A DNA stretch of 41,824 nt. Origin: Gemmatimonadota bacterium (GTDB lineage Bacteria; Gemmatimonadota; Gemmatimonadetes; Palauibacterales; KS3-K002). The notes under the pieces are model-generated. The model had not been told where the DNA came from. It searched no databases and saw only the letters and a program-made list of their open reading frames with translations. This document shows positions 960 to 27,739 of the stretch, piece after piece (position 1 is the stretch's first letter; each line of letters begins with the position of its first letter). Both the position numbers and the translations under genes were made by a program. The DNA is taken from assembly GCA_016209945.1 (NCBI GenBank), contig JACQVD010000169.1:1-41824 (forward strand), read 5' to 3'.

Positions 960-3626
960 ATGACCGTTTTCGTAGGTCGCACGGGAGAGCTCCAGGAGCT
1001 CGAGCGCCGGCTCGAACGCGCGCTCGACCGCAGGGGGAGCATCGTCTTCATCACAGGTGACGCGGGAGCCGGGAAGAGCTCTGTGGTCGAGCGCTTCCTT
1101 GTAGACGCGGCGCTCAAGGCTCCCGACGCTCGGATCATCGGCACTGCCTGCTCGGAACAATACGGAGCGGGTGAGCCCTACCAGCCGTTCGCGGAGGGGT
1201 TCCGCGACCTCGTGTCCGAGCCGGAGCGGCGGGGCTCAAAAGGCCGGCTCAAAGAGATGGCGGCGGAACTCGCCCCCTACTGGCTGGCCGCGATCCCCCT
1301 CGCCGGCGGCCTCATCGCCGCCACGGCGGCGACCGCCGTCGAGCTCAAGAAGACCTTGGGCGGCGTCGCCACGGCGGTGGCGCCCCCGAGCGAAGAGGCC
1401 CTCTTCTTCCAGTTCACCGAGGTCTTCCTCACGGCGGCCGCTCATCACCCCATCGTCCTTTTCATCGACGACCTTCACTGGGCGGACCGCGCATCGGTGT
1501 CCCTCCTCGCACACCTGGGCCGAAAGATCGCGGACCAGCCGGTTCTCATCCTCGGAACCTATCGCCCCGCCGATGTGGAGGTCACAAACCACCCCATCAA
1601 GCAGGCAAAGCTCGAGCTGGAGCGCTACGGGATCGCACACGAGCTCGCGCTTCCACCGCTCGAGACCGATGCGCTGGCGCAGTTCATCCGCGAGGAGCTG
1701 GGCGCCCCTCCGACACCCGAACTCCTCACTTGGCTGGAGCGGCGCGCCGGGACCAACCCGCTCTTCTTCGGCGAGCTCCTGAAGTGGCTCGTCGAACACA
1801 GGATCGCACAGGAACAGCACGGCGAGTGGGCGCTCGCCCGACTCCCGGAGGAGATCGAGATCCCACGCTCCGCGGAGAGCGCCATCGAGAAGCGCCTCAC
1901 GCGATTGCAACCCGACCTCTACCGCCTCCTGGAATATGCGAGCGTCGAGGGGAACGAGTTCCATTCCACGATCCTCGCTCGACTGCGGGACATCGACGAG
2001 CTCGCGCTCGAAGAGGCGATGGAGCCTCTCGTGAAGGTGCACCGGCTCGTGCGCCTGGCCGGCACGCGCACGCTGCCGGACGGCGAGCTCGCGAGCGTCT
2101 ACGAGTTCCAGCACTCGCTTGTCCAGGACGTCCTGCACAGGAACCTCCAGGGGAAGCGACGCATCCTCCTGCACCGGAAGATCGCGGAGATCCTCGAGCA
2201 CATCTACGCGGCGGACCCGGCCCTCATCGCGCACAGGCTGGCCATCCACTACGACGAGGCCCGCGATCCGGAGCGCGCCTACGGGTTCGCGGTGAGCGCC
2301 GCGGAGCGGGCGAGCCATGTGTACGCCCATTGGGACGCGATCGAGCTCCTCCAGCGCGCGCTCCGGAACAGCCTGTCCGACGATGAGAAAACCGAAGTCC
2401 TCGACCGGCTCGCGGATGAGCATCGACTCATCGGCCGTTACTCGGAGGCGCTGTCGCTCCTGCGGGACGCGTTGAAGGTCACAGCCTCGCGCGACGATCA
2501 TCTGCGCGCCCTCGCCCTGAAGCGAAAGTGTGTCGTGGTGGACCGCGAGTTCGGGAACCGATCGCCGGAGCGGCTCCTCGATCAGCTGCGCGAACTCGCT
2601 CAGGAAGCACGGCAGCTGGAAGCGCGGGCGGAGCTGTGCCACATCCTCTGGACATACCGCGGACTGCCGGGAGCCGGGAAGGCGCACGAGGCGGCCCAGG
2701 AGGCGCTCCGGATCGCGGAGGAGCTGGGCGAACCCGCGCTCGTCGCCAAGGCGCAGTACGAGTTGGGCACCGTGCTGCTCCTCGGCCAGGAACCCGCGCG
2801 GGCGATCCCGCACCTCCGCGAGGCGCTGCGGCTCTACACCGAGCAGGAAGACACGGATCGCGCCGGACTCTGTCACAACTGCCTCGCCATCGTCCATGTG
2901 CGTCTCGGGGACTATCGCATGGCGATCCAGGAGTTCGACGCCGCCGCAGGCGCGTTCGAGAGCGCGGGCGACCCTCCGAACGCCGCCTCCGTGCGGAACA
3001 ACCTCGGGGTCCTCCTGGCCCGAATCGGAGACTGGGGGCGCGCCGAGACGAACCTGCGCGAAGCGATCCGGATCGCGCAGCGCATGGACGCGACGGCCCG
3101 GCTCCTGCACCCTCTCGAGAACCTCGCCCGGCTCCACCAGCTGAAAGGCGATCGGGAGGCCGCCCGGGAGCACTGGCGCCGGCTTCTCGAAAAGGCGCGC
3201 GAGACCGGATACTGGAACGCCGAGATCATCGCCCGTTGCGGGTTGGGACTCCTCGACCTCGAGGAGGGCGACCTTCCACCGGCCCGGGCCGAGCTCGACG
3301 AAACGCGGCGTCTCCAGCGGGACGAGGATGCCTGGACCGAAAGCCGTCAGGCGTGCCAGCTGCTCGGCGCGCGACTCGCCGCCACAGAGGGCGACCTGGA
3401 CAGCGCGATCGAATTGCTCGAGGCGGGCGAGACCGCCCTCGCGTCGCGCGATCGCTTCCACTGGGCGACGTTCCGGTTGGCCCACGGGGAGATCCTTGCG
3501 CGGAAGGACCCCGAGCGTGCCGCGCCGATCCTCCGGGAGGCACTGGAAACGTTCCGAAACCTCGGCGCGGAGCCCATGCGACAGAAAGCTGAGTCGCTTC
3601 TGGCGAAGATGAGCGACGTCTCGTGA
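960..3626 (+). CDS. AAA_16-type predicted ATPase with C-terminal TPR repeats (signal-transduction-like)
   Basis: N-terminal FVGRTGELQELERRLERAL, Walker A GDAGAGKSS, Walker B-like IVLFIDDLHWAD, NPLFFGELL motif, TPR-like repeats to the C-terminus. Confidence 0.8.
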   Translation: MTVFVGRTGELQELERRLERALDRRGSIVFITGDAGAGKSSVVERFLVDAALKAPDARIIGTACSEQYGAGEPYQPFAEGFRDLVSEPERRGSKGRLKEMAAELAPYWLAAIPLAGGLIAATAATAVELKKTLGGVATAVAPPSEEALFFQFTEVFLTAAAHHPIVLFIDDLHWADRASVSLLAHLGRKIADQPVLILGTYRPADVEVTNHPIKQAKLELERYGIAHELALPPLETDALAQFIREELGAPPTPELLTWLERRAGTNPLFFGELLKWLVEHRIAQEQHGEWALARLPEEIEIPRSAESAIEKRLTRLQPDLYRLLEYASVEGNEFHSTILARLRDIDELALEEAMEPLVKVHRLVRLAGTRTLPDGELASVYEFQHSLVQDVLHRNLQGKRRILLHRKIAEILEHIYAADPALIAHRLAIHYDEARDPERAYGFAVSAAERASHVYAHWDAIELLQRALRNSLSDDEKTEVLDRLADEHRLIGRYSEALSLLRDALKVTASRDDHLRALALKRKCVVVDREFGNRSPERLLDQLRELAQEARQLEARAELCHILWTYRGLPGAGKAHEAAQEALRIAEELGEPALVAKAQYELGTVLLLGQEPARAIPHLREALRLYTEQEDTDRAGLCHNCLAIVHVRLGDYRMAIQEFDAAAGAFESAGDPPNAASVRNNLGVLLARIGDWGRAETNLREAIRIAQRMDATARLLHPLENLARLHQLKGDREAAREHWRRLLEKARETGYWNAEIIARCGLGLLDLEEGDLPPARAELDETRRLQRDEDAWTESRQACQLLGARLAATEGDLDSAIELLEAGETALASRDRFHWATFRLAHGEILARKDPERAAPILREALETFRNLGAEPMRQKAESLLAKMSDVS

Positions 3627-5254
3627 GCCCCGCACGCGCGCCTCAGCTGGTCAGCCTGCTCGCGCTCACGCTCGCGATCTCGGCGGGCGGGTGCGAGCGT
3701 CGAGGCGCAGAGGGCCCGTCCGCCGAGCCCTCTGACGCGGAGAAGCGAGGCGGCCTGGCCGTCGTGTGCACCCAGGCCGCTCCCGAAAGCCTCGACCCCT
3801 TCCTGTCTCCCGATCTCGGGGTGGGCGATCTCCGCCCTCTGCTCTTCACCCCGCTCGTCCTCTACGACACCGCCGGCGGATTCCGCCCGTACCTCGCCCG
3901 GGAGTGGGCGTGGGAGGACGCTCAGCGAAAACTCACGCTCCGGCTCCGTAGCGACGTGCGCTGGCACGACGGCACGCCGCTCACCGCGGAAGACGTCGCG
4001 TGGACGGTCCGGACTGCGGCGAATCCCGAATACGGATACCGCAGCGCGCGGGACTTCTCGGCGGTTCGGGAGGCCGTGGCTCGCGACTCTGTGACGGTGG
4101 AGTTCCGCTTCAGCGAACCGGTAGCCGCTGGCCTTGAGCCGTTCATCCGACTGCCGATCCTTCCCCGACACCTCCTGGGCAGCCTCGGGCCGACCGAGTT
4201 CCGGCAGGCGGAGTACCACAGGGCGCCGGTCGGAAGCGGGCCCTTCAAATTCGCCGGGCGCAGGCCGGACGGCTCCTTCCAGTTCGACCGTTGGGACGCT
4301 TTTCCCCCCGAACTCGGCCAACTGTTCCTCGATCGGATCGTGCTCCGTGCCATCCCGGAGGCCACCACCCTGCTGGTCGAGCTCGAGACCGGCAGCGTCG
4401 ATCTGTGCGTGACCGGATCCGCACTCGCCGAGAAGGTGCAGGGCTCGAGCCGCTTGCAGCTCCTCGCGCTGGAACCTGCGGGCATTCAGGTCATCTACCT
4501 CAACACTCGCCACGCGCCGCTCAACGATGCGCGCGTCCGGCGCGCCCTGTCCGCGGCCGTCCGGCGGTCCGATATCGCCGCGGTCACCTCGTCGCTCGCA
4601 CGTCCCGCTCGAACTCCGCTCCCGGCAACGAGCCCATGGATCGACCCTGCACTCGGCCAGCCCGACGACGACTCGGCCCTCGCGGTATCGCTGCTGGAGA
4701 GCGCGGGCTGGACGGCGAAAGCCGCCGACGGCCCGCGCAGGGATGCTGCGGGCCAGCCGCTGCGCCTGACGCTCCTCGCCCCGCAGCAGCTGGAAGCGCC
4801 CGTCACAGCGCTCCAGGCCCACCTCCGCCGAGTGGGGGTCGCGCTCGACCTCCGCTTCATGGAGTACGCGGCGTACGTCCCCACGATCCTGAACCCGAAC
4901 ACCCGTCCGGACGCCATGGCCGTCGGCTCCTATCCCGACAGACTCGTCTATCCCGACCTGTACGATCAGCTGCACTCGAAAGCGCCCCGGAACCTCTCCT
5001 CCTACTCCAACGCTTCCCTCGACTCCGCGATCGAGCGCCTGCGGACGACGTTGCCACCCGAAGAGCGCGCGGGGCTGTACGGCGAGATCCAGCGCCGGGT
5101 GGCCGAGGACGTTCCCATTCTGTACCTCGTCTACGTTCCCAGACTGGCCGTCGCGGGCCCGAGGCTGCGTGGAGTGCGAGTGGACTTCAACGGGCCCTTC
5201 GCCTCGGTGGCGGAATGGTGGATCCCACCCGGGCAGCGGGTCGCCGGTCGCTGA
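3623..5254 (+). CDS. Extracellular solute-binding protein family 5 (oligopeptide-type), probable lipoprotein
   Basis: Signal peptide ending SAGGC; SBP_bac_5 features RSDVRWHDGTPLTAEDVAWTVR, APVGSGPFKF, IQVIYLNTRHAPLNDARVRRALSAAV. GTG start overlaps the previous stop. Confidence 0.85.
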   Translation: MSPARAPQLVSLLALTLAISAGGCERRGAEGPSAEPSDAEKRGGLAVVCTQAAPESLDPFLSPDLGVGDLRPLLFTPLVLYDTAGGFRPYLAREWAWEDAQRKLTLRLRSDVRWHDGTPLTAEDVAWTVRTAANPEYGYRSARDFSAVREAVARDSVTVEFRFSEPVAAGLEPFIRLPILPRHLLGSLGPTEFRQAEYHRAPVGSGPFKFAGRRPDGSFQFDRWDAFPPELGQLFLDRIVLRAIPEATTLLVELETGSVDLCVTGSALAEKVQGSSRLQLLALEPAGIQVIYLNTRHAPLNDARVRRALSAAVRRSDIAAVTSSLARPARTPLPATSPWIDPALGQPDDDSALAVSLLESAGWTAKAADGPRRDAAGQPLRLTLLAPQQLEAPVTALQAHLRRVGVALDLRFMEYAAYVPTILNPNTRPDAMAVGSYPDRLVYPDLYDQLHSKAPRNLSSYSNASLDSAIERLRTTLPPEERAGLYGEIQRRVAEDVPILYLVYVPRLAVAGPRLRGVRVDFNGPFASVAEWWIPPGQRVAGR

Positions 5255-5509
5255 GCTCAGGCGGGGATTCCTACGGACTGAGCGGAGGGCGAAGACTGCC
5301 CCGGCTCTTGCCACGCCAGAGCCCCGCCCGTAGTTTGCCCGCGGTGGCGGCGGGGCGGTTGGGTGCAGCCGGCAGGCCAGGCATTTCCTCGCACCGGAGC
5401 CCCACATGCAACATCGCGCCCGAGTGCGCGTCAACCCGGGCGTCTCGGCATCGCGCCTCCCGAAGCCAGCGTCTGGGCGCGATCGGGATTTCTTAGCGTC
5501 GTTCTCACC

Positions 5510-7417
5510 ATGGCCGAGGTAGCCGTCCGGCCTCGCGAGCACCTCGATCTCCTCTACCAGGCGGCCCTGGAGTTCAACTCCACCCTGGATCTGGAGGAGC
5601 TCCTGCCTCGGGTCTTCGACAGAATCATCCAGATCCTCGACGCGGAGGCCGGTTCCATCTGGCTGCGCAGCGGTGACAAGCTCATCTGCCGGCTCGCGCG
5701 CGGCCCGGTGGGTGAAGAGATCGAAGGCCTCGAGCTGCCGCTGGGCGCCGGGATCGTCGGCGACGTGGCGCGCAAGGGCGAGGCGGAGCTCGTCGCCGAC
5801 GCCCGTAACGACCCGCGCTTCATCCACCAGGTCGATGAGGCGACGGGCTTTGCGACCCGGTCCATGGTCGCGGCCCCGCTCAAGGCGAAGGGAGAAGTCC
5901 TCGGCGTCTTCCAGGTCCTGAACAAGCGATCGGGGAACGGCCAGTTCGATGAGAGCGACAAGGGCTTGCTCGTGGGCCTGGCGGCCACCGCCGGGATGGC
6001 GCTCCGCAACGCCCAGTTGCACGAGGCGGAGAAGCGCGCGCGCGACCTGCGCGCACTGCTCGGCATCAGCCGGGAGATCACCTCGACCCTGGACCTCGAC
6101 CGCCTGGTGCTTTCGGTCGTGAACCTCGCGAGCCAGGCCGTGGCCTACGACCGTGCGGCCATCGTCCTCGACGAGAAAGGGCGACCTCTTCTGCGGGCGA
6201 TCTCGGGGCGGGAAACGCTCGACCCGAAGGCCGAGGAGAACCGGGAGCTCGAGCGCCTCATCACCTGGCTTCTCGAACGCGACGAGGTCGCCTACGTACC
6301 GGAGATCTCGGACGAGGAGGACGAGCTGGCCCCGGCCGCGCGCGCCGCGTTCGGCTCGTACTTCGAGCGCACCGGCGTCCGCTCCTTCTGCCTCATCCCT
6401 CTCAAGGACGAGGAGGGGCGGCTGGGTGGCCTGTACATGGAGTCCTCCAACCCCGAATTCCTGGGAGAGGGCGGCCGCGAGGCGGCGGAGCTCCTGGCCT
6501 ACCAGGCGGCGGTCGCGATCCGGAACGCCACGCTGTACAGCCAGGTCCCGTTCATCAGCGTGCTGGAGCCCGTGGCGGCGTGGCGGCGCCGCATCGCCGC
6601 CATGCCCCGGCGAACGCTCGCGAAGAAGGTGGGGATCCCGGCCGCCGTCGCTCTCGCCGTGTTCCTGATCCCGCTGCACGAGCGGATCTCCACGCGCGAG
6701 GCCGTTCTCCTGCCCGGCAGCCGGATGCCGGTGCGCGCCACCGTCGCCGGCGTGATCTCGGAGATCCGGGTGGACGAAGGCCAGACGGTCGAGGCCGGCG
6801 ACATCCTCGCGGTGCTCCGAGACGACGAGATCCGCACGAGGCTCCAAGAGGCGGAGGCAGGGCGCGCGATCGCGGAGCGCGAAGCGGCGGCGGCCCAGAC
6901 CGCGGGAGACGAGGCGAAAGCCCAGATCGCCCGGATCCAGGCGCAGGAGCTCGCGGCACGGCTGAGCCTCCTGAGACAGGAATTGGAAAGGACGCGACTG
7001 CGGGCGCCGGTGGCCGGGGTCGTCCTGACGCCGCGACCCCGCGAGAGGCTGGGCGCGTCGCTGGAGCCGGGCGAGACGTTTGTCGTCCTCGGCCGGACGG
7101 ACCGTCTGGAAATCGAGGCCCGCGTCGCGGACCGGGACATCGACCGCGTCCGAGCCGGCCAGCGCGTTCGTCTCAAGGTCCCGTCGCGCCCGGAGTACAC
7201 GTTCGTAGGGACGGTCACGGAGATCGCGTCGCACGCGGATCCTCCGGAGGGCCGCGGGGGCTCGACGTTCGCCGTGCGCGCGGGACTCGAAAACGGCGCG
7301 GGCCTCTTGAAACCCGGGATGGACGCGAAGGCGAAGATCGTGGGATCCTGGCGGCCCATCGCCGCTCTCCTCATGCGCCCAGTGATTCGGTTGATCCAAT
7401 GGCACGTCTGGCGGTAG
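5510..7417 (+). CDS. Tandem GAF domains + TM + HlyD/biotinyl-lipoyl membrane-fusion domain protein
   Basis: Two GAF-like regions (LEELLPRVFDRIIQILDAEAGSIWL…; LDRLVLSVVNLASQAVAYDRAAIVL…), TM VGIPAAVALAVFLIPL, then HlyD MPVRATVAGVISEIRVDEGQTVEAGDILAVL … LRAPVAGVVLTPRPRERLG. ATG at 5510 preferred over the ORF-track start at 5363. Confidence 0.82.
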   Translation: MAEVAVRPREHLDLLYQAALEFNSTLDLEELLPRVFDRIIQILDAEAGSIWLRSGDKLICRLARGPVGEEIEGLELPLGAGIVGDVARKGEAELVADARNDPRFIHQVDEATGFATRSMVAAPLKAKGEVLGVFQVLNKRSGNGQFDESDKGLLVGLAATAGMALRNAQLHEAEKRARDLRALLGISREITSTLDLDRLVLSVVNLASQAVAYDRAAIVLDEKGRPLLRAISGRETLDPKAEENRELERLITWLLERDEVAYVPEISDEEDELAPAARAAFGSYFERTGVRSFCLIPLKDEEGRLGGLYMESSNPEFLGEGGREAAELLAYQAAVAIRNATLYSQVPFISVLEPVAAWRRRIAAMPRRTLAKKVGIPAAVALAVFLIPLHERISTREAVLLPGSRMPVRATVAGVISEIRVDEGQTVEAGDILAVLRDDEIRTRLQEAEAGRAIAEREAAAAQTAGDEAKAQIARIQAQELAARLSLLRQELERTRLRAPVAGVVLTPRPRERLGASLEPGETFVVLGRTDRLEIEARVADRDIDRVRAGQRVRLKVPSRPEYTFVGTVTEIASHADPPEGRGGSTFAVRAGLENGAGLLKPGMDAKAKIVGSWRPIAALLMRPVIRLIQWHVWR

Positions 7418-8271
7418 CCGACGGCACGCGCGGTCGCGTGCTCCGCCCGCTCGTCGTGGCCGCCCTCACGGTGGCGCCGGCGGCCTGCGGGAAGGAGATC
7501 GAGTCGAAGGCCGGCCCGGACATCCGCGATGCGACGCCCGTGAGCCTCGGCCCCACGATGTCGGCGGCGGGCGAGGAGAACCGCTACCGCACGCACCTCT
7601 ACTCGGAGCGCGACGCCGATGTCTACACCCGCTGGAACTCGGACGAGAGCGGCAGCGTGGGCGCGCTCGTGAAGGCGATCCACGTGGAGATCGGCGACCG
7701 CGTGGCCGCGGGTCAGCTCCTGGCGACCCTCGAAGACGATCAGGCGGCGATCGATGTCGAGGCCACCGGGGCGCGCGCTGAGGAGGCGAGGGCGAACTTC
7801 CGGCGCGTTCAGGAGCTTCGCGAGAAACAACTGGCCTCCGCCTCGGAGTATGAGGCGGCGCTCTCAGCGATGCGGAGCGCGGAGGCGGATCTCAGACGCG
7901 CCCAGCTCCGGCTGTCGTGGACGCGCGTGCGCCCCCCCTTCGGGGGCGTCGTGGCGCGGCGCTACGTGCGAGTCGGCGAGCGCGTGGAGGAGGGGAAGCC
8001 GCTCTTTCGCGTCACGGCGATGAGCCCTCTCCGCGCGCGCTTGCTCGTTCCCGAGGATCGCGCGGCGGCGTTTCGCATCGGGTCGCCCGTCCGGCTCACC
8101 GGCGCGCAAGGCGTGAGCGGCCAGGGCCATGTGCTCCTCGTGAGCCCCACCGTTGACCCAGCAAGCGGCACGCGCGAGGTGATCGTCGAGCTCGCGCAGC
8201 CTGGCGACTTCCTCCCCGGCGCCGCCGTGATCGCGGAGCTCATAGCCGGGCGAGAGGGTGCAGGACGGTGA
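7399..8271 (+). CDS. HlyD-family periplasmic adaptor subunit, probable lipoprotein
   Basis: Start MARLAVADG… overlaps the end of the previous gene; lipobox-like APAAC; VGALVKAIHVEIGDRVAAGQLLATLEDD … RVRPPFGGVVARRYVRVGERV. Confidence 0.8.
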   Translation: MARLAVADGTRGRVLRPLVVAALTVAPAACGKEIESKAGPDIRDATPVSLGPTMSAAGEENRYRTHLYSERDADVYTRWNSDESGSVGALVKAIHVEIGDRVAAGQLLATLEDDQAAIDVEATGARAEEARANFRRVQELREKQLASASEYEAALSAMRSAEADLRRAQLRLSWTRVRPPFGGVVARRYVRVGERVEEGKPLFRVTAMSPLRARLLVPEDRAAAFRIGSPVRLTGAQGVSGQGHVLLVSPTVDPASGTREVIVELAQPGDFLPGAAVIAELIAGREGAGR

Positions 8272-10337
8272 CGTCGGCGCTGGAAGCCCGCCCGAAGCTC
8301 CGGACGGACTTGAAGATCGTGCGCCGCGAGCACGAGGGCCGCGTGCACTACGTCGTGAAAGAGCCCCAGGAACAAAAGTACTATCAGTTCGGAGAGCTCG
8401 AGATCGATCTCATGCGGCTCATGGACGGGCGCCGCACTCCGGCAGAGATCGCCGAACTGGCAGAAGAAACGCTGCGCGTGCGCCTCACCGCGGGACACAT
8501 CGCCGACTTCGCCCACAAACTGAAGAGGCGCGGCCTCGTGGAGCGCTCCCCGGCCGAGCAGCACCTCATCCTGATGGAGCGGCTGCGGGCCCAGCGGAAG
8601 GTGCGCGTGCGCCGCCGCACCCGCGGATCCATCCTCCGATTGCGATTCTCCGTCGGCGACCCCGACCGTCTCTTCGAGCGGATGGTGCAGCGCCTTCACT
8701 GGATGTGGTCGCCCGGGTTCGTAGGGGCCTCCATCGTCCTGTTCGCCGCGTATTTTCTCATCCTCGGCCTTCAATGGGAGGAGTTCTTCGCAGGGACGAT
8801 GGCCCTCTACACCCTCCAGGGCGTCGCCTGGACGGACTACGTGCTGATCTGGGCCCTCGAGATGCCCATCACCGTCGTGCATGAGCTTGGGCACGGGCTC
8901 ACCACCAAGCGCTTCGGGGGCGAGGTGCGCGACGTAGGCGGGATGCTCCTCTACTTCTCGTTCGCGCTCTACTGCAACACGAACGACGCCTGGACCTTCC
9001 AGAAGCGAAGCCACCGTCTGTGGGTGAACTTCGCGGGCCCCTGGATCGAGCTGGTGATCGCCGCGGTGGGCGCCGTCGTCTGGGTGCTGGCCGAGCCGGG
9101 CACCTTCGTGCATCGAGTGGCGTTCCTCTCGATCCTGGTGGGCGGCATCGGCGCGGTCATGGCGAACCTGAACCCGCTGATCCCGCTGGACGGCTACTAC
9201 GCTCTCTCCGACTGGCTCGAGATCCCGAACCTGCGCGGCCGCTCCTTCGAGTACTGGGGCTGGCTGACGAAGCGATACGTCCTGGGGATCGACGCGGCAG
9301 AGCCGGCGGTGACGCCGCGCGAGCGGAAGGCCTTCCTGCTGTACGGCGGGCTGGCCTCCGCCTACAGCGCTGCCGTGATCGTCATCTCCGTGATCTTCCT
9401 GATCCTCGTGTTCGGCAGGTTCGTCGGAGGCTGGGTCTGGATCGCTGTCGCACTCATGATGGTCCCGCTCGTGCGCCGCGTTCGGGGTCGCTGGAGCGCC
9501 ATCGCCGTTGCCGCCAGAACGACATGGCGCGCAGCCCTGAAGCGGAGCGGGAAGCGAAGCCGTATGGCGTTGGCGGGAACCGCCCTCGGCATCGTCGTGC
9601 TCCTCGTTCTCCCGTGGACGTTCCGAGCGCGGGGCGAGTTCCGGGTCGAGGCGGCGCCGCGGGCGTATGTGCGAGCGGAGGTGCTCGGTGTGCTCGATCG
9701 GCTGCACGTGCGAGACGGCGATACGGTACGCGCGGGCGCGCCGCTCACGACCCTGTGGAATCCTCAGTTGGAGTCGGAGTTCCTGGCACAAGAGGCCCTG
9801 ACCGAGCAATGGAGGATCACCCTCGCCCAGGCGGAGGCGCAGAACGATCGCGCCGCTGCCGCGTCCGCCGCGACGATGCTCCGGGAGGGCCTCGAGAAGC
9901 TCGCCGTCCTGCGGGCCCAGCGCGAGCGGCTCGTCGTCCGCGCACCGATCGACGGAGTCGTGCTCGCCTACCGTCCGTGGGAGCGGCTGGGAGAGGGGCT
10001 CGAGCCCGGCGACCTCCTCTTCGAGATCGCGTCGCTGCAAGGACGCGTCGCGCGGGTCCGCGTGCCGCCGAGCGTGGCCGCCGACGTTGCGCCGGGCCAG
10101 CGTGCCAGCCTCAAGTTCGCGGCAAACCCTCGACTCAAGTTCAGAGCGACCGTGGCCGCCGTGTCACCCGCCGCCGAGGAAGGCTGGCTCGAGGCCGTGA
10201 TCCCCCTCCCCGCCGCCGACTGGCAGCCGGCCCCGGGGATGACGGGAGTCGCGAAGATCGAGACCGGCCGCGCGACCGTGGCAAAGGCGATCGCCCGCGC
10301 GGTGCGGCAGACGATCCGCATGGATCTCTTGCTATGA
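8268..10337 (+). CDS. PqqD-like (RRE-type) winged helix + M50/site-2-protease-like membrane metallopeptidase + HlyD domain fusion
   Basis: N-term RPKLRTDLKIVRREHEGRVHYVVKEPQEQKYYQFGELEIDLMRLMDGRRTPAEIAE resembles PqqD; HEXXH in VVHELGHG; distal NLNPLIPLDGYYALSDWLEIPNLR; C-terminal HlyD RAEVLGVLDRLHVRDGDTVRAG … VRAPIDGVVLAYRPWERLGEGLEPGDLLFEI. Confidence 0.82.
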   Translation: MTSALEARPKLRTDLKIVRREHEGRVHYVVKEPQEQKYYQFGELEIDLMRLMDGRRTPAEIAELAEETLRVRLTAGHIADFAHKLKRRGLVERSPAEQHLILMERLRAQRKVRVRRRTRGSILRLRFSVGDPDRLFERMVQRLHWMWSPGFVGASIVLFAAYFLILGLQWEEFFAGTMALYTLQGVAWTDYVLIWALEMPITVVHELGHGLTTKRFGGEVRDVGGMLLYFSFALYCNTNDAWTFQKRSHRLWVNFAGPWIELVIAAVGAVVWVLAEPGTFVHRVAFLSILVGGIGAVMANLNPLIPLDGYYALSDWLEIPNLRGRSFEYWGWLTKRYVLGIDAAEPAVTPRERKAFLLYGGLASAYSAAVIVISVIFLILVFGRFVGGWVWIAVALMMVPLVRRVRGRWSAIAVAARTTWRAALKRSGKRSRMALAGTALGIVVLLVLPWTFRARGEFRVEAAPRAYVRAEVLGVLDRLHVRDGDTVRAGAPLTTLWNPQLESEFLAQEALTEQWRITLAQAEAQNDRAAAASAATMLREGLEKLAVLRAQRERLVVRAPIDGVVLAYRPWERLGEGLEPGDLLFEIASLQGRVARVRVPPSVAADVAPGQRASLKFAANPRLKFRATVAAVSPAAEEGWLEAVIPLPAADWQPAPGMTGVAKIETGRATVAKAIARAVRQTIRMDLLL

Positions 10338-11035
10338 CCCGAGGAGCGCAGAAAGAAGACCTTTCGAGCGTGCTCGCGAGCTCGCCACTGCTCCGGGGCG
10401 TCGGCAAGGAGGCTCTGAAAGAGCTCGCAGCCATGGCGCGCTGCCATGACTACCCGAAGAACAACATCCTGCTTTACCAGGGCGACCCTGCCGGCCCGGT
10501 CTTCCTTGTGGTCCGGGGCAGCGTCAAGGTCACCCTCGCCCATGAAGCCGGCCGCGAGGTCGTCATCGCCAGAGCCCGGAGCGGTGGCTTGGTGGGGCTC
10601 GTCTCCGCCCTCGATGGCCGACCGCAACCGGCGAACGCGATCACGGAAACAGCCTCACACCTGGCGAAGTTCGACGGGGAACCCTTCATCGCCTGGATGG
10701 AGCAGCAGAAGGCGACGCAGCAAGCGGTCTTGCGCGACCTGAGCCAGTCGGTGAGGCGCGCCTATCAGAAGATCGGGGAGCACGCGCTCCTGGGAGTCAA
10801 GGAGCGGGTTCTCTACGCGCTCCTTGAGATCGCCGAGCAGGAGGGCGAGCCGGAGCGGGCCAGCGGGTACGTCGTGTTCACCCGGCCCACCCTCCAGGAC
10901 CTTGCCCAGCGTGTGGGATCCAGCCGAGAGGTGGTGTCCCGGATCATGAAAGAGCTTCTGGAGAGCGATCTCCTGCGGGCCGAGGGGCGGGTGATCCGGG
11001 TGTCGGCATCCGCACTTGTTGTAAGGGAGGACTGA
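10334..11035 (+). CDS. Crp/Fnr-family transcriptional regulator
   Basis: Cyclic-nucleotide-binding-like fold (ILLYQGDPAGPVFLVVRGSVKVTL) and HTH_Crp (TLQDLAQRVGSSREVVSRIMKELLES). ATG overlaps the preceding stop. Confidence 0.88.
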   Translation: MTRGAQKEDLSSVLASSPLLRGVGKEALKELAAMARCHDYPKNNILLYQGDPAGPVFLVVRGSVKVTLAHEAGREVVIARARSGGLVGLVSALDGRPQPANAITETASHLAKFDGEPFIAWMEQQKATQQAVLRDLSQSVRRAYQKIGEHALLGVKERVLYALLEIAEQEGEPERASGYVVFTRPTLQDLAQRVGSSREVVSRIMKELLESDLLRAEGRVIRVSASALVVRED

Positions 11036-11041
11036 GGGTGC

Positions 11042-11057
11042 CGTGACCGAAGTCACG
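11042..11057. promoter_or_regulatory. CRP-type palindrome CGTGA-CCGAAG-TCACG
   Basis: Perfect dyad; GTGA-N6-TCAC matches the core CRP consensus; 7 nt after the stop of the Crp/Fnr gene. Confidence 0.6.
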
Positions 11058-11185
11058 TTCAAAAGGGAACTCCCCGTCGCTCGTGGCTTGAACGTCCGTC
11101 ACAGGGATCGCCTTCGCGACGTCACCTTACGCGGACGCTCGGAGTCACAGGCGGGCGGTGATTCGCGTCCTAGGCGGCTCCGAGG
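11048..11185 (+). repeat. Phased GTCAC direct-repeat array A
   Basis: GTCAC at 11052, 11098, 11121, 11144 (steps of 46, 23, 23), degenerate GTCGC at 11076, and GTCCTAGGCGG at 11167 in the same 23-bp phase. Confidence 0.7.
11055..11095. repeat. Inverted repeat ACGTTCAA-N25-TTGAACGT
   Basis: Perfect 8-bp arms at 11055-11062 and 11088-11095. Confidence 0.4.
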
Positions 11186-11200
11186 GGTGGGGTTCATATT
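11166..11200 (+). promoter_or_regulatory. Putative promoter block of peptide A: CGTCCTAGGCG-N18-CATATT
   Basis: CCTAGG (11169-11174) and CATATT (11195-11200) separated by exactly 20 nt, as upstream of peptide B. Confidence 0.5.
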
Positions 11201-11272
11201 GGAGCCGTTAATGGGCCCTCAGAACGGACGAGATGAGGTGCCCGGGTCACCGCCAAGCACAGGAGGTCAGCC

Positions 11273-11452
11273 GTGGAAAAGAAGAAGGAGTCTCTCCGGA
11301 TCCAGCTCACGGACGAGCAGAAGAAGCAGATCCGTGAGGCGACGGGCAAGGACGCGTCCGCGATCGAGCTCAGCCTCCAGGAGCTCGAGGAGCGCGTCTC
11401 TCCGCGTCGGAGAGGGGGCGCCGGCGGCCGTCGGCACAAGTTCATCGCGTAA
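11273..11452 (+). CDS. Short peptide A (59 aa), putative leader/core-type substrate peptide
   Basis: GTG start preceded by CAGGAGGTCAGCC; MEKKKESLRIQLTDEQKKQIREATGKDASAIELSLQELEERVSPRRRGGAGGRRHKFIA, TAA at 11450-11452. Not in the ORF track (59 aa). Coding status supported by the paralogue at 15455. Confidence 0.8.
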   Translation: MEKKKESLRIQLTDEQKKQIREATGKDASAIELSLQELEERVSPRRRGGAGGRRHKFIA

Positions 11453-11480
11453 GACGGCCCGAGCCCTGCCAGCTTCGCGA

Positions 11481-11518
11481 GCGGGGCGACCGCACGGGCG
11501 GTCGCCCCGCCTCGTTTT
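11481..11518 (+). terminator. Intrinsic terminator after peptide A
   Basis: Perfect 13-bp stem GCGGGGCGACCGC / GCGGTCGCCCCGC (loop ACGG), then CTCG-TTTT. Confidence 0.8.
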
Positions 11519-11551
11519 CATCCCGAGCTTCGAGCACGGGTCGAACACAGC

Positions 11552-14500
11552 ATGAACACGCACGTCCGGATCGAGTCGTGCCCCGCGTGTGGGGTCTCCG
11601 TGCAGGAAGGCGCGAAGTACTGCGCGAGCTGCGGGGCGCCCCTGGACGTTCATGACGTGACGAGCTGCGGCGCCTGCGGCCAGCGCAACCCGAAAGGCGC
11701 GCAATTCTGCCTCGCCTGCGGCGCGCCCGTGGGCTCCGTCGCCCAGGCCGAACGGCGAGTCGTGACGGTCCTGTTCGCCGACGTGTCAGGCTTCACGGAA
11801 CTCACCGAAGAATCCGATCCCGAGGAGGTGCGGGAGCTCATCGCCCAGTGCCTCGACCGGCTCTGCCAGTGCATCACGCGGTGGGGCGGATTCGTGGACA
11901 AGTTCATCGGCGACTGCGTGATGGCCCTCTTCGGCGCACCCGTGACCCATGAGAACGACCCCGAGCGCGCGGTGCGCGCGGCGCTCGACATGCACGTGGC
12001 GCTCGCCGGGTTGACCATCGAGGGATTGGCCCGCCGCGGGTACAGACCACAGGTGCGCATCGGAATCAACACGGGGTCTGTCGTGACGGGACTCTTCTCC
12101 GCCGGCGGCGAGCGCGACTATACGGCCGTCGGAGACACTGTGAACGTGGCCTCGCGGGTGCAGGGGCTCTGCGAGCCGGGACGGATCCTGGTCGGCCCGA
12201 CGACCTACGAGCGAACGCGTCACCTCTTCGAGTTCGAGCCCGAGCAGGTCCTCCAGGTCAAGGGACGCCGCGAGCCCGTGCATGCGCGATACGTCCAGGG
12301 GGTCCGGGCCGAGCGTGGCAAGGTCCGCGGCTTCCAGGAGAAGGAGGCCCGTTTCATAGGTCGCGTGGCGGAACTCTCGGGCCTCCGCGACCGCTGGCGG
12401 CGCGCGAAGGAAGGCGAGGCGCAGATCTGTCTGCTCACAGGGCCGGCCGGGCTAGGAAAGTCGCGGCTTCTGGAAGAGCTCGTCGCCGTGGAACGGCTCC
12501 TCGTCGAGCAATTTGCCCAAGGGCGCAGCTACCCGTACGCGAGCAGCACCCCCTGGGCGCCTATCAGCGAGCTCGTGCGCGACCTCTACAACCTCCCGCT
12601 GACGATGGCGCCTGCCGAGGCGGCCGCGAGGATCGCGGAGGCTGGCGGCGGCACGTGGGAGGCCGTAGACGTGGCCGCCCTGAAGGTCGCGCTCGGGAGT
12701 CCGATCTCCGAGGTCCCGGAACTCCAACCCTACAGGCCCCAGGATCGCCATGACCGGATCGTGGCGGCCGTGGTCCGAGCGATCGAGGAGGCGGCAACGG
12801 ATCCGCGGCTTCTCATCCTCGAGGATCTGCACTGGGCGGACCGCACAACGCTGGAGCTCCTGTGCGATCTCCCCCGGCTGGGGTTGCGCGGCCCGATCCT
12901 CACCGTCCTCGTGACCCGGCCGCCCTTGGCGGGAGAGGCGGTGCTGGCCCGCCTCGTCGCGTGCATCGAGGACAGGGTCGATCTGGCACCGCTCACGCCG
13001 GAGGAGGCGCGCGAGTTCGTCGAGGCGACGCTGGGCGCCCACGAGATGCCGCAGGACTTCCTCGACGTGATCATCGGGCGGGCGGAAGGGAACCCCCTCT
13101 TTATCGAGGGGACGCTCAGGTCCGTGGTGGACGCCGGCGCCCTGCGGGCCGAAGACGGGGTGTGGAGGGCACACGCCACGCTGAGCGAGTTCGAGGTGCC
13201 GGACACCATTGAGAGCGTGCTGGCCACGCGCATCGATGCGCTCGACACGTCCGCGAAGCGCGTGCTTCAGTACGCGGCGATCGTCGGACGCCGCTTCTGG
13301 TCCGGGGTTCTGCGAGACGCACTCGCCAAGCAACCTGTGGAGCGCGAGCTGGAGGTGCTGCGGGACGGGGCGTTCGTTCGGCCGCTCCCGTCGTCCATGG
13401 TGAGCGGGGACCACGAGTTCATGTTCGAGCATCTGCTGCTCCAGGAAGTGGCGTACCAGGGCCTTCTGCGGAGCCTGCGCGCACAACTCCATGGCGCCGT
13501 CGCCCGCTGGCTCGAAGAACATTTCGCGGCGCAGGGCACAGAGCACGCCGAGTGGGTGGCGTTTCACTACGAGCGATCGAAGGAGCCGGCACGCGCCGTG
13601 CCGCTTCTCGAGCGCGCCGCCCGGAGTGCCCGGGCGCGCGGCGGCCTGTCCGACGCCAAGTCACTCGTGCAAAGAGCGCTGAAGGCCGCCGCCGAGCCGG
13701 AGGACAGGGTCCGATTGCTGACCCTCGTGGAGGAGATCGCGGCGGCTCTGGGGGACGACGAGGTGCGCCGGAAGGCGATCGAGGATTTGGAGGCCCTTGG
13801 AGGCGAGCGCCGCGACGAACGTATCCTCGCCGAGGCCAGCTTCCGGCGAGCGCGCTACCTCTTCGACTCGGGAGACCTTCCGACCGCACGAGCGACCGCC
13901 CAAGAGGCCCAGAAGCAATTCGAGAAACTCGGCGACGTGTCGCGACAGGGGGACGCGCTCTCCCTTCTGGGCCGCGTCGCCCACCTGTGGGGCGAATACC
14001 CCGAGGCGATGCACCACTATCGCGCTTCCCTCCCCCTCCAGCGGCGCGCCGGGGACCGCTTCGGCGAAGCAGAGGTCCTGGACCGCATCGGCCTCGCGCT
14101 CATCGACATCGGCGACTTCACAAGAAGCCTCGACTACTTCGCTCGCGCGCGCCGGTTCTGTGCAGAACTCGGTGACCTTCCAACGGAGGCGAGGGTCGTG
14201 GCGCACCGCGCGACGGGGCTCTACTGGCTCGGGGAGTACGAGGAGGCGGAGGGAGTGGCGCGCGAGGCGGTCACGCTGGCACGGCAGTGCGGGTCGCGCC
14301 GCGCTCAGGCCGGCACGGAATTGACGCTGGGGATCGTCCTGGCCGCGCGAAAGAACGTCGAGGAAACACGCGCCGCGTTGCAGAGCGCTTGCAACCTTGG
14401 CCGCGAAATCCGGCGACCCAGGGTGGAAGCCCGCGCCTGGTTGGCGCTCTCCGAAATCGAGGGCGGAGAGGAGGCGCACCAGAGCTTGCAACGCGCCCGC

Positions 14501-14854
14501 GACCAGGCGGGCCGGACGGGGCTTGTCCACGTTGAGATCCTGGCGCTCACCCGCCAAGCGCACCTGGCATTGGAGGAGGGAGATCTACCGGCCGCCGATC
14601 GCGACTCGGCACAGGCCGTCCAGAAGCTCATGATCCACTACAACGTGCAGGGCCCCGAAGAAGCCGTGTACTACACGCGAGCACGGGCGCTCCTGGCCCT
14701 GGGACGTCGCAAGGAGGGACAGGAGATGCACACGCGGGCGCAGCAGATCGTTCAGCGCAAGGCCCGACATATCAAGGACGCCGCCCTCCGCCAGCGCTAC
14801 CTGGAAGGGATCCCCCTGAACCGAGAGATCCTAGGCCCGGGGGTGAGCACATGA
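11552..14854 (+). CDS. Double zinc ribbon + class III adenylate/guanylate cyclase + AAA ATPase + TPR
   Basis: CPACGVSVQEGAKYCASCGAPL and CGACGQRNPKGAQFCLACGAPV; cyclase motifs VTVLFADVSGFTEL, FVDKFIGDCVMALFG, DYTAVGDTVNVASRV; Walker A LTGPAGLGKSR; LLILEDLHWAD; TPR-like C-terminus. Confidence 0.9.
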   Translation: MNTHVRIESCPACGVSVQEGAKYCASCGAPLDVHDVTSCGACGQRNPKGAQFCLACGAPVGSVAQAERRVVTVLFADVSGFTELTEESDPEEVRELIAQCLDRLCQCITRWGGFVDKFIGDCVMALFGAPVTHENDPERAVRAALDMHVALAGLTIEGLARRGYRPQVRIGINTGSVVTGLFSAGGERDYTAVGDTVNVASRVQGLCEPGRILVGPTTYERTRHLFEFEPEQVLQVKGRREPVHARYVQGVRAERGKVRGFQEKEARFIGRVAELSGLRDRWRRAKEGEAQICLLTGPAGLGKSRLLEELVAVERLLVEQFAQGRSYPYASSTPWAPISELVRDLYNLPLTMAPAEAAARIAEAGGGTWEAVDVAALKVALGSPISEVPELQPYRPQDRHDRIVAAVVRAIEEAATDPRLLILEDLHWADRTTLELLCDLPRLGLRGPILTVLVTRPPLAGEAVLARLVACIEDRVDLAPLTPEEAREFVEATLGAHEMPQDFLDVIIGRAEGNPLFIEGTLRSVVDAGALRAEDGVWRAHATLSEFEVPDTIESVLATRIDALDTSAKRVLQYAAIVGRRFWSGVLRDALAKQPVERELEVLRDGAFVRPLPSSMVSGDHEFMFEHLLLQEVAYQGLLRSLRAQLHGAVARWLEEHFAAQGTEHAEWVAFHYERSKEPARAVPLLERAARSARARGGLSDAKSLVQRALKAAAEPEDRVRLLTLVEEIAAALGDDEVRRKAIEDLEALGGERRDERILAEASFRRARYLFDSGDLPTARATAQEAQKQFEKLGDVSRQGDALSLLGRVAHLWGEYPEAMHHYRASLPLQRRAGDRFGEAEVLDRIGLALIDIGDFTRSLDYFARARRFCAELGDLPTEARVVAHRATGLYWLGEYEEAEGVAREAVTLARQCGSRRAQAGTELTLGIVLAARKNVEETRAALQSACNLGREIRRPRVEARAWLALSEIEGGEEAHQSLQRARDQAGRTGLVHVEILALTRQAHLALEEGDLPAADRDSAQAVQKLMIHYNVQGPEEAVYYTRARALLALGRRKEGQEMHTRAQQIVQRKARHIKDAALRQRYLEGIPLNREILGPGVST

Positions 14855-14867
14855 GAAGCGCCGCAGG

Positions 14868-15254
14868 GTGACCGCGGAAACGTTCGGGCTGCTGTGCGGG
14901 CTCCTCGTTGCCCACTACCTCGGCGATTTCACGCCGCTCAGCACCGCCCGGATGCTGGAGGCCAAGTATAGCGGCGGGCCGCTCAGCCCCATCGCCGGGC
15001 ACGCGGCGGTGCATGCCCTCCTCGTCGCCCTGGCCGTGATCGTGTTCGTGCGGAGCAGCCCTTGGCTCCCTGCGGCGATCGCCGCTCCGATCGAATTCGC
15101 CACCCACTTCTCGATCGACGCCATGCGGGCGCGCCTCGGGCGCCGCATCCCCGCGCTCAGGGATCCGGGCCAGAACGTCTACTGGTACGCGTTCGGCATC
15201 GACCAGCTGGCTCACGCCCTCGTGCTGGTGGGACTGGCCGCCCTTGTGCTGTAG
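14868..15254 (+). CDS. DUF3307-like small membrane protein
   Basis: HYLGDFTPLS … HAAVHALLVALAVIVF … EFATHFSIDAMR … GIDQLAHALVL pattern; GTG start. Confidence 0.6.
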   Translation: MTAETFGLLCGLLVAHYLGDFTPLSTARMLEAKYSGGPLSPIAGHAAVHALLVALAVIVFVRSSPWLPAAIAAPIEFATHFSIDAMRARLGRRIPALRDPGQNVYWYAFGIDQLAHALVLVGLAALVL

Positions 15255-15255
15255 C

Positions 15256-15394
15256 CAGAGTCACACCAGCGACGACAGGTTCTCGCACCGGCCTTTGGCA
15301 ATTCCGGTCACGCCCCGTGCGTCGGCTGCATCACGGGGTCGCGCGAACGGAAGTCACAGGGCTCTCGTGATGCCCGTCCTAGGCGATCCCCAAC
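15256..15394 (+). repeat. Phased GTCAC direct-repeat array B
   Basis: GTCAC at 15260, 15307, 15353; ATCAC at 15330; degenerate CGCAC at 15284; GTCCTAGGCG at 15376. Steps 47, 23, 23, 23, the same layout as array A. Confidence 0.7.
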
Positions 15395-15409
15395 AGCGTC
15401 CTCCATATT
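15375..15409 (+). promoter_or_regulatory. Putative promoter block of peptide B: CGTCCTAGGCG-N18-CATATT
   Basis: CCTAGG (15378-15383) to CATATT (15404-15409) with a 20-nt spacer identical in length to the A copy. Confidence 0.5.
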
Positions 15410-15454
15410 GGGCGCGTTCGCGATCACATCGCCACAAGCCGCAGGAGGTCAGCC

Positions 15455-15637
15455 ATGGAAAGGAAGAAGGGGTCTCTCCGGATCCAGCTCACGGACGAGC
15501 AGAAGAAGCAGATCCGTGAGGCCACCGGGAAGAACGCCTCCGTGATCGAGCTCACGCTTCAGGAGCTCGAGGAGCGTGTCTCTCCGCGCCGCCGCCGTAG
15601 CCGTGGGCGCGGTCGTTTCAAGCCGCAAATCGGCTAG
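15455..15637 (+). CDS. Short peptide B (60 aa), paralogue of peptide A
   Basis: MERKKGSLRIQLTDEQKKQIREATGKNASVIELTLQELEERVSPRRRRSRGRGRFKPQIG; SD GCAGGAGGTCAGCC-ATG; 51-bp exact nucleotide match with copy A (15472-15522 vs 11290-11340). Confidence 0.85.
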   Translation: MERKKGSLRIQLTDEQKKQIREATGKNASVIELTLQELEERVSPRRRRSRGRGRFKPQIG

Positions 15638-15670
15638 CACAACGCCGGCCGTGCCCGTTGCCGGGGCCTC

Positions 15671-15699
15671 TGGGGCGACCGCCCTTTGCGGTCGCCCCA
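15671..15699. terminator. Hairpin between convergent peptide B and xerD
   Basis: Perfect 12-bp stem TGGGGCGACCGC / GCGGTCGCCCCA with loop CCTTT; stem core identical to the hairpin after peptide A. Confidence 0.65.
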
Positions 15700-15707
15700 G
15701 GCCCGGC

Positions 15708-27406: not shown

Positions 27407-27739
27407 ATGCGTGTTCTGGCCCTGATGTTGTTTGCGGCGAACCTCACCGCGTACGCGGGCGCGCCGTTGTGCTCCCACAAGGCACACCGCGCGGACTCCG
27501 CCTGCGCGGAGATGAGCGCATCGCCAGCACCCAGTGCGCCATCCGTGACCGATCAGTGCGACGCATGCCCCATCGCCGACTGCCACAGCATGCTCACCTG
27601 CGCCGCGGTGAGTAGCATCACCCTCGAAGGCCTGAGGGCGACTCTGGCGATCCCCCTCTCTTGGTCCCCGGCGCTGGATCCGACCACGCTGGGCGACGGT
27701 GAACTGACCGCCCCACCGCCTCGACCACCCCGAACGTAG
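27407..27739 (+). CDS. Small exported Cys/His-rich protein upstream of cusCBA-like operon
   Basis: MRVLALMLFAANLTAYAGAPLCSHKAHRADSACAEM … DQCDACPIADCHSMLTCAAVS; start at internal ATG gives a plausible signal peptide. Confidence 0.55.
   Translation: MRVLALMLFAANLTAYAGAPLCSHKAHRADSACAEMSASPAPSAPSVTDQCDACPIADCHSMLTCAAVSSITLEGLRATLAIPLSWSPALDPTTLGDGELTAPPPRPPRT

Follow-up and report, generated by a model that had tools for sequence, protein, structure and literature searches.

A Gemmatimonadota locus probably encoding leader-directed processing and export of LE-x-R-tagged cargo

What does a bacterium do with two near-twin short peptides encoded close to a single protein that joins a PqqD-like domain, an M50 protease, and an HlyD-type adaptor? 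The question is raised by positions 5510 to 15699 of contig JACQVD010000169.1 (assembly GCA_016209945.1), a 41,824-nucleotide (nt) stretch of DNA analyzed as a whole (hereafter, the window) from a Gemmatimonadota draft genome of 1.73 Mb in 169 contigs (83% complete). The original prediction, made from the letters alone, held that the PqqD-like domain captures a leader shared by both peptides, the M50 domain processes it, and the HlyD parts export the product. All the features it named, including the gene set, the start/stop overlaps, and the twin peptides, were present, confirming the observation, while its interpretation was partly supported and its core strengthened. We consider it probable (roughly 0.68) that this is a system for leader-directed processing and export of cargo tagged with an LE-x-R motif, with predicted leader binding, cleavage site, export, and secreted function.

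Tagged peptides beside the fusion gene

Peptide A (positions 11273 to 11452; + strand, as for all window features given below) starts at a GTG codon, with a leader running from VEKKK to ELEERVSP followed by the tail RRRGGAGGRRHKFIA, and belongs to a family found across Gemmatimonadota. Peptide B (15455 to 15637) has a leader running from MERKK to ELEERVSP and the tail RRRRSRGRGRFKPQIG. The two peptides are 76% identical; the DNA identity of their genes reaches 90% over the first 44 codons, the basic tails are divergent, and the C termini read FIA (A) and QIG (B). No further copy was found in the assembly. Matches of the peptides to NCBIfam and Pfam models were not credible (ADP-ribosyltransferase, 0.07; DUF3618, 0.002 and below its cutoff; FliX, 0.05).

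Chance open reading frames (ORFs) were excluded because the peptides recur beside the gene for the PqqD-M50-HlyD protein (the fusion, 8268 to 10337) in other genomes. Among 60 relatives searched, a peptide adjoined the fusion in G025, G051, and G057, and the order fusion-Crp-peptide-cyclase in G025 was that of the window. Across 298 Gemmatimonadota genomes, 26 encoded the fusion and 27 the peptide; 20 encoded both, where 2.4 were expected (Fisher p = 2.7e-20); counted by genus (15/3/5/96), p was 2.7e-12. Fusion and peptide usually lay within ~6 kb of each other in co-occurring genomes. Hence the short ORFs tracked the fusion and were rarely found without it, the point on which the original prediction had staked its own refutation. 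Up to seven divergent peptides were encoded in one genome (G251).

The exceptions other than G269 were inspected. Two of the six fusion-only genomes (G163 and G316) encoded another LExRIA peptide beside the fusion. In G221, the peptide was encoded next to the GAF-HlyD gene where the contig ended; in G029, other system genes sat on broken contigs. Further exceptions were a masked stretch (G016), a match to the HlyD part only (G099), and a short contig (G144). Peptide matches in G090, G094, and G157 had the leader in common and no motif and were set aside, as were weak matches in G018 and G035 that look like chance. In eight other Gemmatimonadota loci, AAA-type regulator genes were divergent from the peptides (L041, L044 [BTAD-AAA], L048, L050, L053, L054, L056, and L087).

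Tags and cargo in other phyla

A search of GTDB genomes with a fusion alignment gave 80 loci that span Gemmatimonadota, Acidobacteria, Verrucomicrobia, Planctomycetota, Bdellovibrio-like and magnetococcal bacteria, Alteromonadaceae, and others. An iterated profile retrieved 63 short peptides with a terminal LExRIAP-type motif and then a variable tail. ORFs carrying LE.[RK][IV][AS]P inside their first 150 residues numbered 61 on the fusion strand vs. three on the other strand (binomial p = 5e-15); 60 of the 61 lay ≤5.5 kb from the fusion, and four control motifs gave none. Same-strand tagged ORFs occurred in 41 of the 80 loci. At the level of sequence, the element common to these loci is an eight-residue ELExRIAP-type motif; the ~47-residue leader that the original prediction took to be shared held as such within Gemmatimonadota, to which the whole leader is specific.

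Short peptides are the putative substrates in the window, as proposed, but elsewhere large proteins carry the tag as well. In Oligoflexia, Bdellovibrio-like, magnetococcal, alteromonad, and planctomycete loci, it was found at residue 14 to 52 of proteins of 851 to 2,079 residues, which from their sequences look like surface proteins and plausible cargo. Putative substrates, i.e., A, B, and 14 others, were compared with a lipoprotein control for maximal mean hydropathy in the first 80 residues. Because 15 of the 16 fell below the control (<1.5 vs. 1.83), they appear to lack a Sec-like segment; the exception was one LEPR protein, with 1.89 from its first annotated codon. A gene encoding TolC adjoined the fusion locus in several phyla other than that of the window. 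Tails repeating GYEGQPGNQGG after LExRIAP were seen in peptides of Verrucomicrobia, Acidobacteria, and others (L066, L067, L082, L096, L100, and L115), and three loci (L230, L231, and L232) encoded small proteins that resemble the leader (LTPEQREMVRRMSGQNIDAIEL) and lack the LExRIAP motif, close to kinase-like genes.

In 197 genomes of the family Alteromonadaceae, which has paralogous fusions, type-1 fusions occurred in eight genomes and type-2 fusions in seven. The DNA pattern LE[DE]RIAPG was found in seven of the eight type-1 genomes, within about 8 kb, vs. one of the 189 others (G402; Fisher p = 3e-11). Proteins matching the NCBIfam model LEPR-8K were encoded in six of the seven type-2 genomes, mostly ≤7 kb away, vs. 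none of the 190 others (Fisher p = 9e-11). Both machines and both tags occurred together in four genomes (G067, G342, G390, and G424). Hence each paralogous fusion pairs with its own tag, LEDRIAPG or the previously known LEPR-XLL. The LEPR-XLL/LEPR-8K model NF012209 gave no match to the LExRIAP proteins at E 0.01, and the two tags are therefore related by layout with no common model.

On alphaproteobacterial plasmids, a relative of the type-2 fusion comes after a giant gene of 12 to 38 kb encoding a protein that starts with a LEPR-like sequence (HLETFEPRVLLSAD, FDTLEPRVLLNAD, VEPIEPRILLSAD), and at several of these loci a SecA paralogue of 640 to 660 residues, an adaptor, and TolC follow. Truncated SecA paralogues adjoined the fusion in four such plasmid loci (L235, L236, L237, and L239) and in L109 (10469 to 12229); several of these SecA-bearing records also contained DUF3467 and giant LEPR-like proteins. 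Searches by tblastn with three SecA paralogues returned matches only in L109, L235 to L237, and L239, and none in the window or the examined Gemmatimonadota loci.

In fusion-bearing planctomycete genomes, LEDRxxP[AS] occurred at 22 and eight sites in two genomes and at zero to two sites in five. Most of the sites read lay at residue 17 to 75 of a long ORF, and a few at 129 to 136 of the ORF as called. Twelve fusion-negative Gemmatimonadota controls gave few matches, of another kind. These sequences suggest that planctomycete substrates are encoded away from the machine, against controls that comprise Gemmatimonadota only and no fusion-negative planctomycetes; by the same suggestive evidence, several planctomycete loci without a tagged ORF probably have their substrates elsewhere. 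Long ORFs with an N-terminal LEDRxxP[AS] far from the fusion were seen genome-wide in G064 and G060 (loci L201 to L226).

The fusion protein and its locus

The fusion is a protein of 689 residues, modeled by AlphaFold2 with a mean predicted local distance difference test (pLDDT) score of 89.9 over its whole length. NCBIfam model NF041824 (daptide_HExxH) matched residues 17 to 401 (E 1.2e-55, 189 bits), below the family cutoff of 300. Residues 8 to 95 (8289 to 8552) were modeled as a β3-α3 fold with pLDDT 93.8. The best Foldseek matches of this domain in the PDB were PqqD and the leader-bound ribosomally synthesized and post-translationally modified peptide (RiPP) recognition elements (RREs) of TbiB1 and TfuB1 (E about 0.001, template modeling score 0.64 to 0.70). 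A profile search likewise placed PqqD (3g2b), PaaA, TfuB1, and TbiB1 at the top with modest E values (0.003 to 0.04), and the Pfam PqqD match of this single fusion protein was weak (E 0.036). The modeled N terminus is an RRE fold, as the original prediction supposed, and would bind the leader. In the middle of the protein, the zinc motif HELGH (residues 205 to 209, 8880 to 8894) and a second motif (residues 300 to 309, 9165 to 9194) are those of an M50 site-2 protease; H205, E206, H209, N300, P303, and D308 were invariant in 55 fusions, and with its motifs intact the domain is predicted to cleave. The periplasmic HlyD/membrane-fusion domain (residues 452 to 674, 9621 to 10289; HlyD_D23, 2.3e-16) is, by Foldseek comparison of the model, a MacA/MexA-type adaptor (E 1e-14). 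The catalytic and adaptor assignments of the original prediction were thereby borne out. No relatives of the fusion were found in the viral contigs searched.

Between 5510 and 11035, genes encoding GAF-GAF-TM-HlyD (TM, transmembrane), an HlyD lipoprotein, the fusion, and a Crp/Fnr regulator overlap or abut, and the fusion gene overlaps its neighbor by 4 nt at either end. The GAF-GAF-TM-HlyD adaptor (5510 to 7417; Pfam GAF, 1e-31; HlyD_3, 9e-21) was called from the ATG at 5510, with an in-frame GTG upstream at 5363, and its orthologues adjoin the fusion in 37 loci. A second adaptor of HlyD/RND type (7399 to 8271, starting at ATG 7399 or GTG 7438; TIGR01730, 1.7e-37) is a probable lipoprotein with a lipobox-like VAPAAC, and orthologues were found in 27 loci. 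The Crp/Fnr gene (10334 to 11035; cNMP_binding, 2.9e-16; HTH_Crp_2, 1.5e-9), in the same position in G025, is followed by peptide A, a zinc ribbon-class III cyclase-AAA-TPR protein (11552 to 14854; Guanylate_cyc, 4.5e-26; AAA_16, 3e-21), a DUF3307 protein (14868 to 15254; PF11750, 1.7e-11), and peptide B. The cyclase-AAA-TPR gene adjoins the peptide gene also in G025 and G029, and the DUF3307 gene is present in the G029 peptide locus too. Being conserved in near relatives only, the genes for Crp, cyclase, and DUF3307 count as local accessories; the original prediction had listed Crp and the cyclase among the parts of the system.

The genes for A and B have identical ribosome-binding sites, and the promoter-like pair GTCCTAGGCG-N18-CATATTGG occurs 5' of A (11167 to 11202) and, identically, of B (15376 to 15411), and nowhere else (none expected). 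No promoter for either peptide emerged from a sigma-70 scan, and the pair is the better lead. A terminator-like hairpin with a T-rich tail lies 3' of A (11478 to 11514; -34.7 kcal/mol, z -5.8), and another hairpin lies 3' of B (15660 to 15707; -43.4 kcal/mol, z -5.2). The gap between crp and peptide A contains a Crp-like palindrome, GTGA-N6-TCAC, of putative function (11043 to 11056). Such palindromes number five in the window vs. 0.5 expected, three of them at 27608, 30555, and 34379, away from the peptide/fusion locus. Directly upstream, 960 to 5254 encodes an AAA-TPR protein and a family-5 solute-binding protein of oligopeptide/nickel type, neither of which was seen to be conserved as a fusion neighbor. 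The Rfam scan of the window gave no match reaching a gathering score.

Competing readings and known systems

Daptide precursors carry the leader motif ELExMEAP and their products are cut after ELExxxxx; alanine at L(-7) or M(-4) abolishes RRE-dependent modification, and leader removal is assigned to MpaP, a site-2 protease fused to an RRE (PMC10036551, PMC12338566). The window motif fits the layout E-L-E-x-x-x-[AS]-P, with R-I/V at positions -4/-3 where daptides have M-E. Because this eight-residue layout matches that of a motif removed by an RRE-M50 protease, and in line with the motif statistics, ELEERVSP of peptides A (11381 to 11404) and B (15563 to 15586) is predicted to be the recognition and cleavage motif, cut after its proline. 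The cytoplasmic RRE of the fusion would bind LE-x-R in a short leader of non-Sec type, the inner-membrane M50 domain would cut just after that motif, and the released C-terminal part would be exported through the periplasmic HlyD part, the GAF-HlyD and lipoprotein adaptors, and outer-membrane TolC. In the window, the cargo would be the two short, very basic tails of A and B; in other phyla, repeat-rich peptides or large surface-like proteins with the same tag would take this route, and SecA is a candidate energy source in lineages that encode a paralogue.

Several observations weigh against such a system. Kinship entered the co-occurrence analysis through the genus-level count and no tree; in G108 and G277, the peptide is an orphan whose motif is degenerate and whose vicinity lacks the fusion; some Gemmatimonadota tails are merely 3 to 8 residues long (MKI, KVFV), odd for an export product; and 37 of the 80 fusion loci had no tagged ORF within reach, many of them on short contigs. 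No ABC transporter recurred near the fusion (a motif scan of the 80 loci gave one ABC-like ORF), nor was any known energized transporter among their recurrent neighbor families. The shortest tails would suit peptides that are regulatory partners, docking in the RRE to gate or report on a machine whose true cargo is encoded elsewhere, with the tail sequence of minor importance. Crp, cyclase, or BTAD-AAA regulators adjoin the peptides, and the two window peptides come with separate promoter-like pairs and hairpins, as might be expected of such partners. Nevertheless, the same tag is found elsewhere on large surface-like proteins and repeat-rich peptides that resemble cargo, and several divergent peptides per genome suit cargo better, so that we regard a regulatory role as unlikely.

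A true RiPP pathway, in which the tails of A and B are enzymatically modified before cleavage and export, would account for the daptide-like RRE-M50 protease, the ELExxxxP leader, and a conserved leader joined to a variable tail. However, no modification enzyme was found among the scanned genes of 960 to 15637 and none recurred in the 80 loci, where no radical-SAM-like gene recurred and CxxxCxxC proteins numbered three, one of them itself a fusion; no modifiable residue is conserved among the tails, and the C-terminal Thr of daptides is absent from A and B. We therefore judge this pathway very unlikely, and the modified product implied by the original prediction found no support. M50 proteases often act in signaling. 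Together with the GAF and Crp genes of the operon, this would agree with regulated intramembrane proteolysis or stress sensing, in which sensing would fall to the GAF and HlyD parts, a membrane protein would be the target of the M50 domain, and the peptides would be incidental. Incidental peptides would not yield the observed co-occurrence (p = 2.7e-20) or the strand bias of 61 vs. three, and this explanation appears the least probable of those considered.

Leader-directed processing and export thus remains the reading we favor for the window. A broader version is tentative and in our estimate somewhat short of an even chance: the window may be a miniature form, with short basic peptides, of a distinct Gram-negative secretion pathway in many phyla that leads from a non-Sec N-terminal LE-x-R tag through RRE binding and M50 cleavage to HlyD/TolC export, which in some lineages a dedicated SecA paralogue would drive. 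Its tags would be ELEERIAP, LEDRIAPG, LEPRxLL, and probably the planctomycete LEDRxxPA. If true, some of the largest bacterial proteins would gain a partner for their N-terminal tag (LEPR-XLL and relatives), a gene module labeled completely unknown in 2015 would gain a role, and leader recognition, familiar from small natural products, would be linked to exporting entire surface proteins; the system would also offer a short signal open to testing, a predicted site of cleavage, and a predicted catalytic mutant.

The window system resembles several known ones in part. Like the daptide peptidase (DapP/MpaP), the fusion joins an RRE to an M50 intramembrane protease, and as in daptides, an E-L-E-x-x-x-A-P-type leader motif occurs with several precursor genes per locus (PMC10036551). 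Unlike that peptidase, it runs on into an HlyD adaptor, the invariant C-terminal Thr is missing in A and B, and daptide aminotransferase, alcohol dehydrogenase, methyltransferase, and DUF-RRE genes were absent among the scanned genes of 960 to 15637. As in type I secretion (HlyB-HlyD-TolC), adaptors are of the HlyD type, and TolC, adjacent in other phyla, is a candidate channel; unlike it, there is no recurrent ABC transporter, and the signal lies at the N terminus and is probably removed by cleavage. The LEPR-XLL/LEPR-8K domain (NF012209) is similarly a short N-terminal L-E-P-R on very large surface-like proteins beside a paralogous fusion, but has LLYSAD rather than IAPG after the R, and its partner is a separate, more distant fusion clade.

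The closest precedent is the module that Kamneva, Poudel and Ward (2015) describe as GAF-HlyD, M50-HlyD, HlyD, and a secondary SecA_DEAD, sometimes with an outer-membrane efflux protein, proposing a secretion-related function and calling its broader role "completely unknown" (PMC4452313). Positions 5510 to 10337 of the window likewise combine GAF-HlyD, M50-HlyD, and a further HlyD in one operon, without the SecA_DEAD paralogue; the sections of that paper covered here name no substrate, signal, or leader-binding domain. In the open-access literature we found no later paper on this module, and none on the pairing of tag and machine (motif, LEPR-XLL, PqqD+M50+HlyD) or naming substrates of the machine. 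The claim of an undescribed system therefore needs narrowing: a 2015 paper had already noted the GAF/M50/HlyD module (PMC4452313), and daptides offer a precedent for RRE-M50 leader peptidases (PMC10036551). Part of the machine is known, whereas the tag pairing and the RRE assignment appear new as far as the open-access literature reaches.

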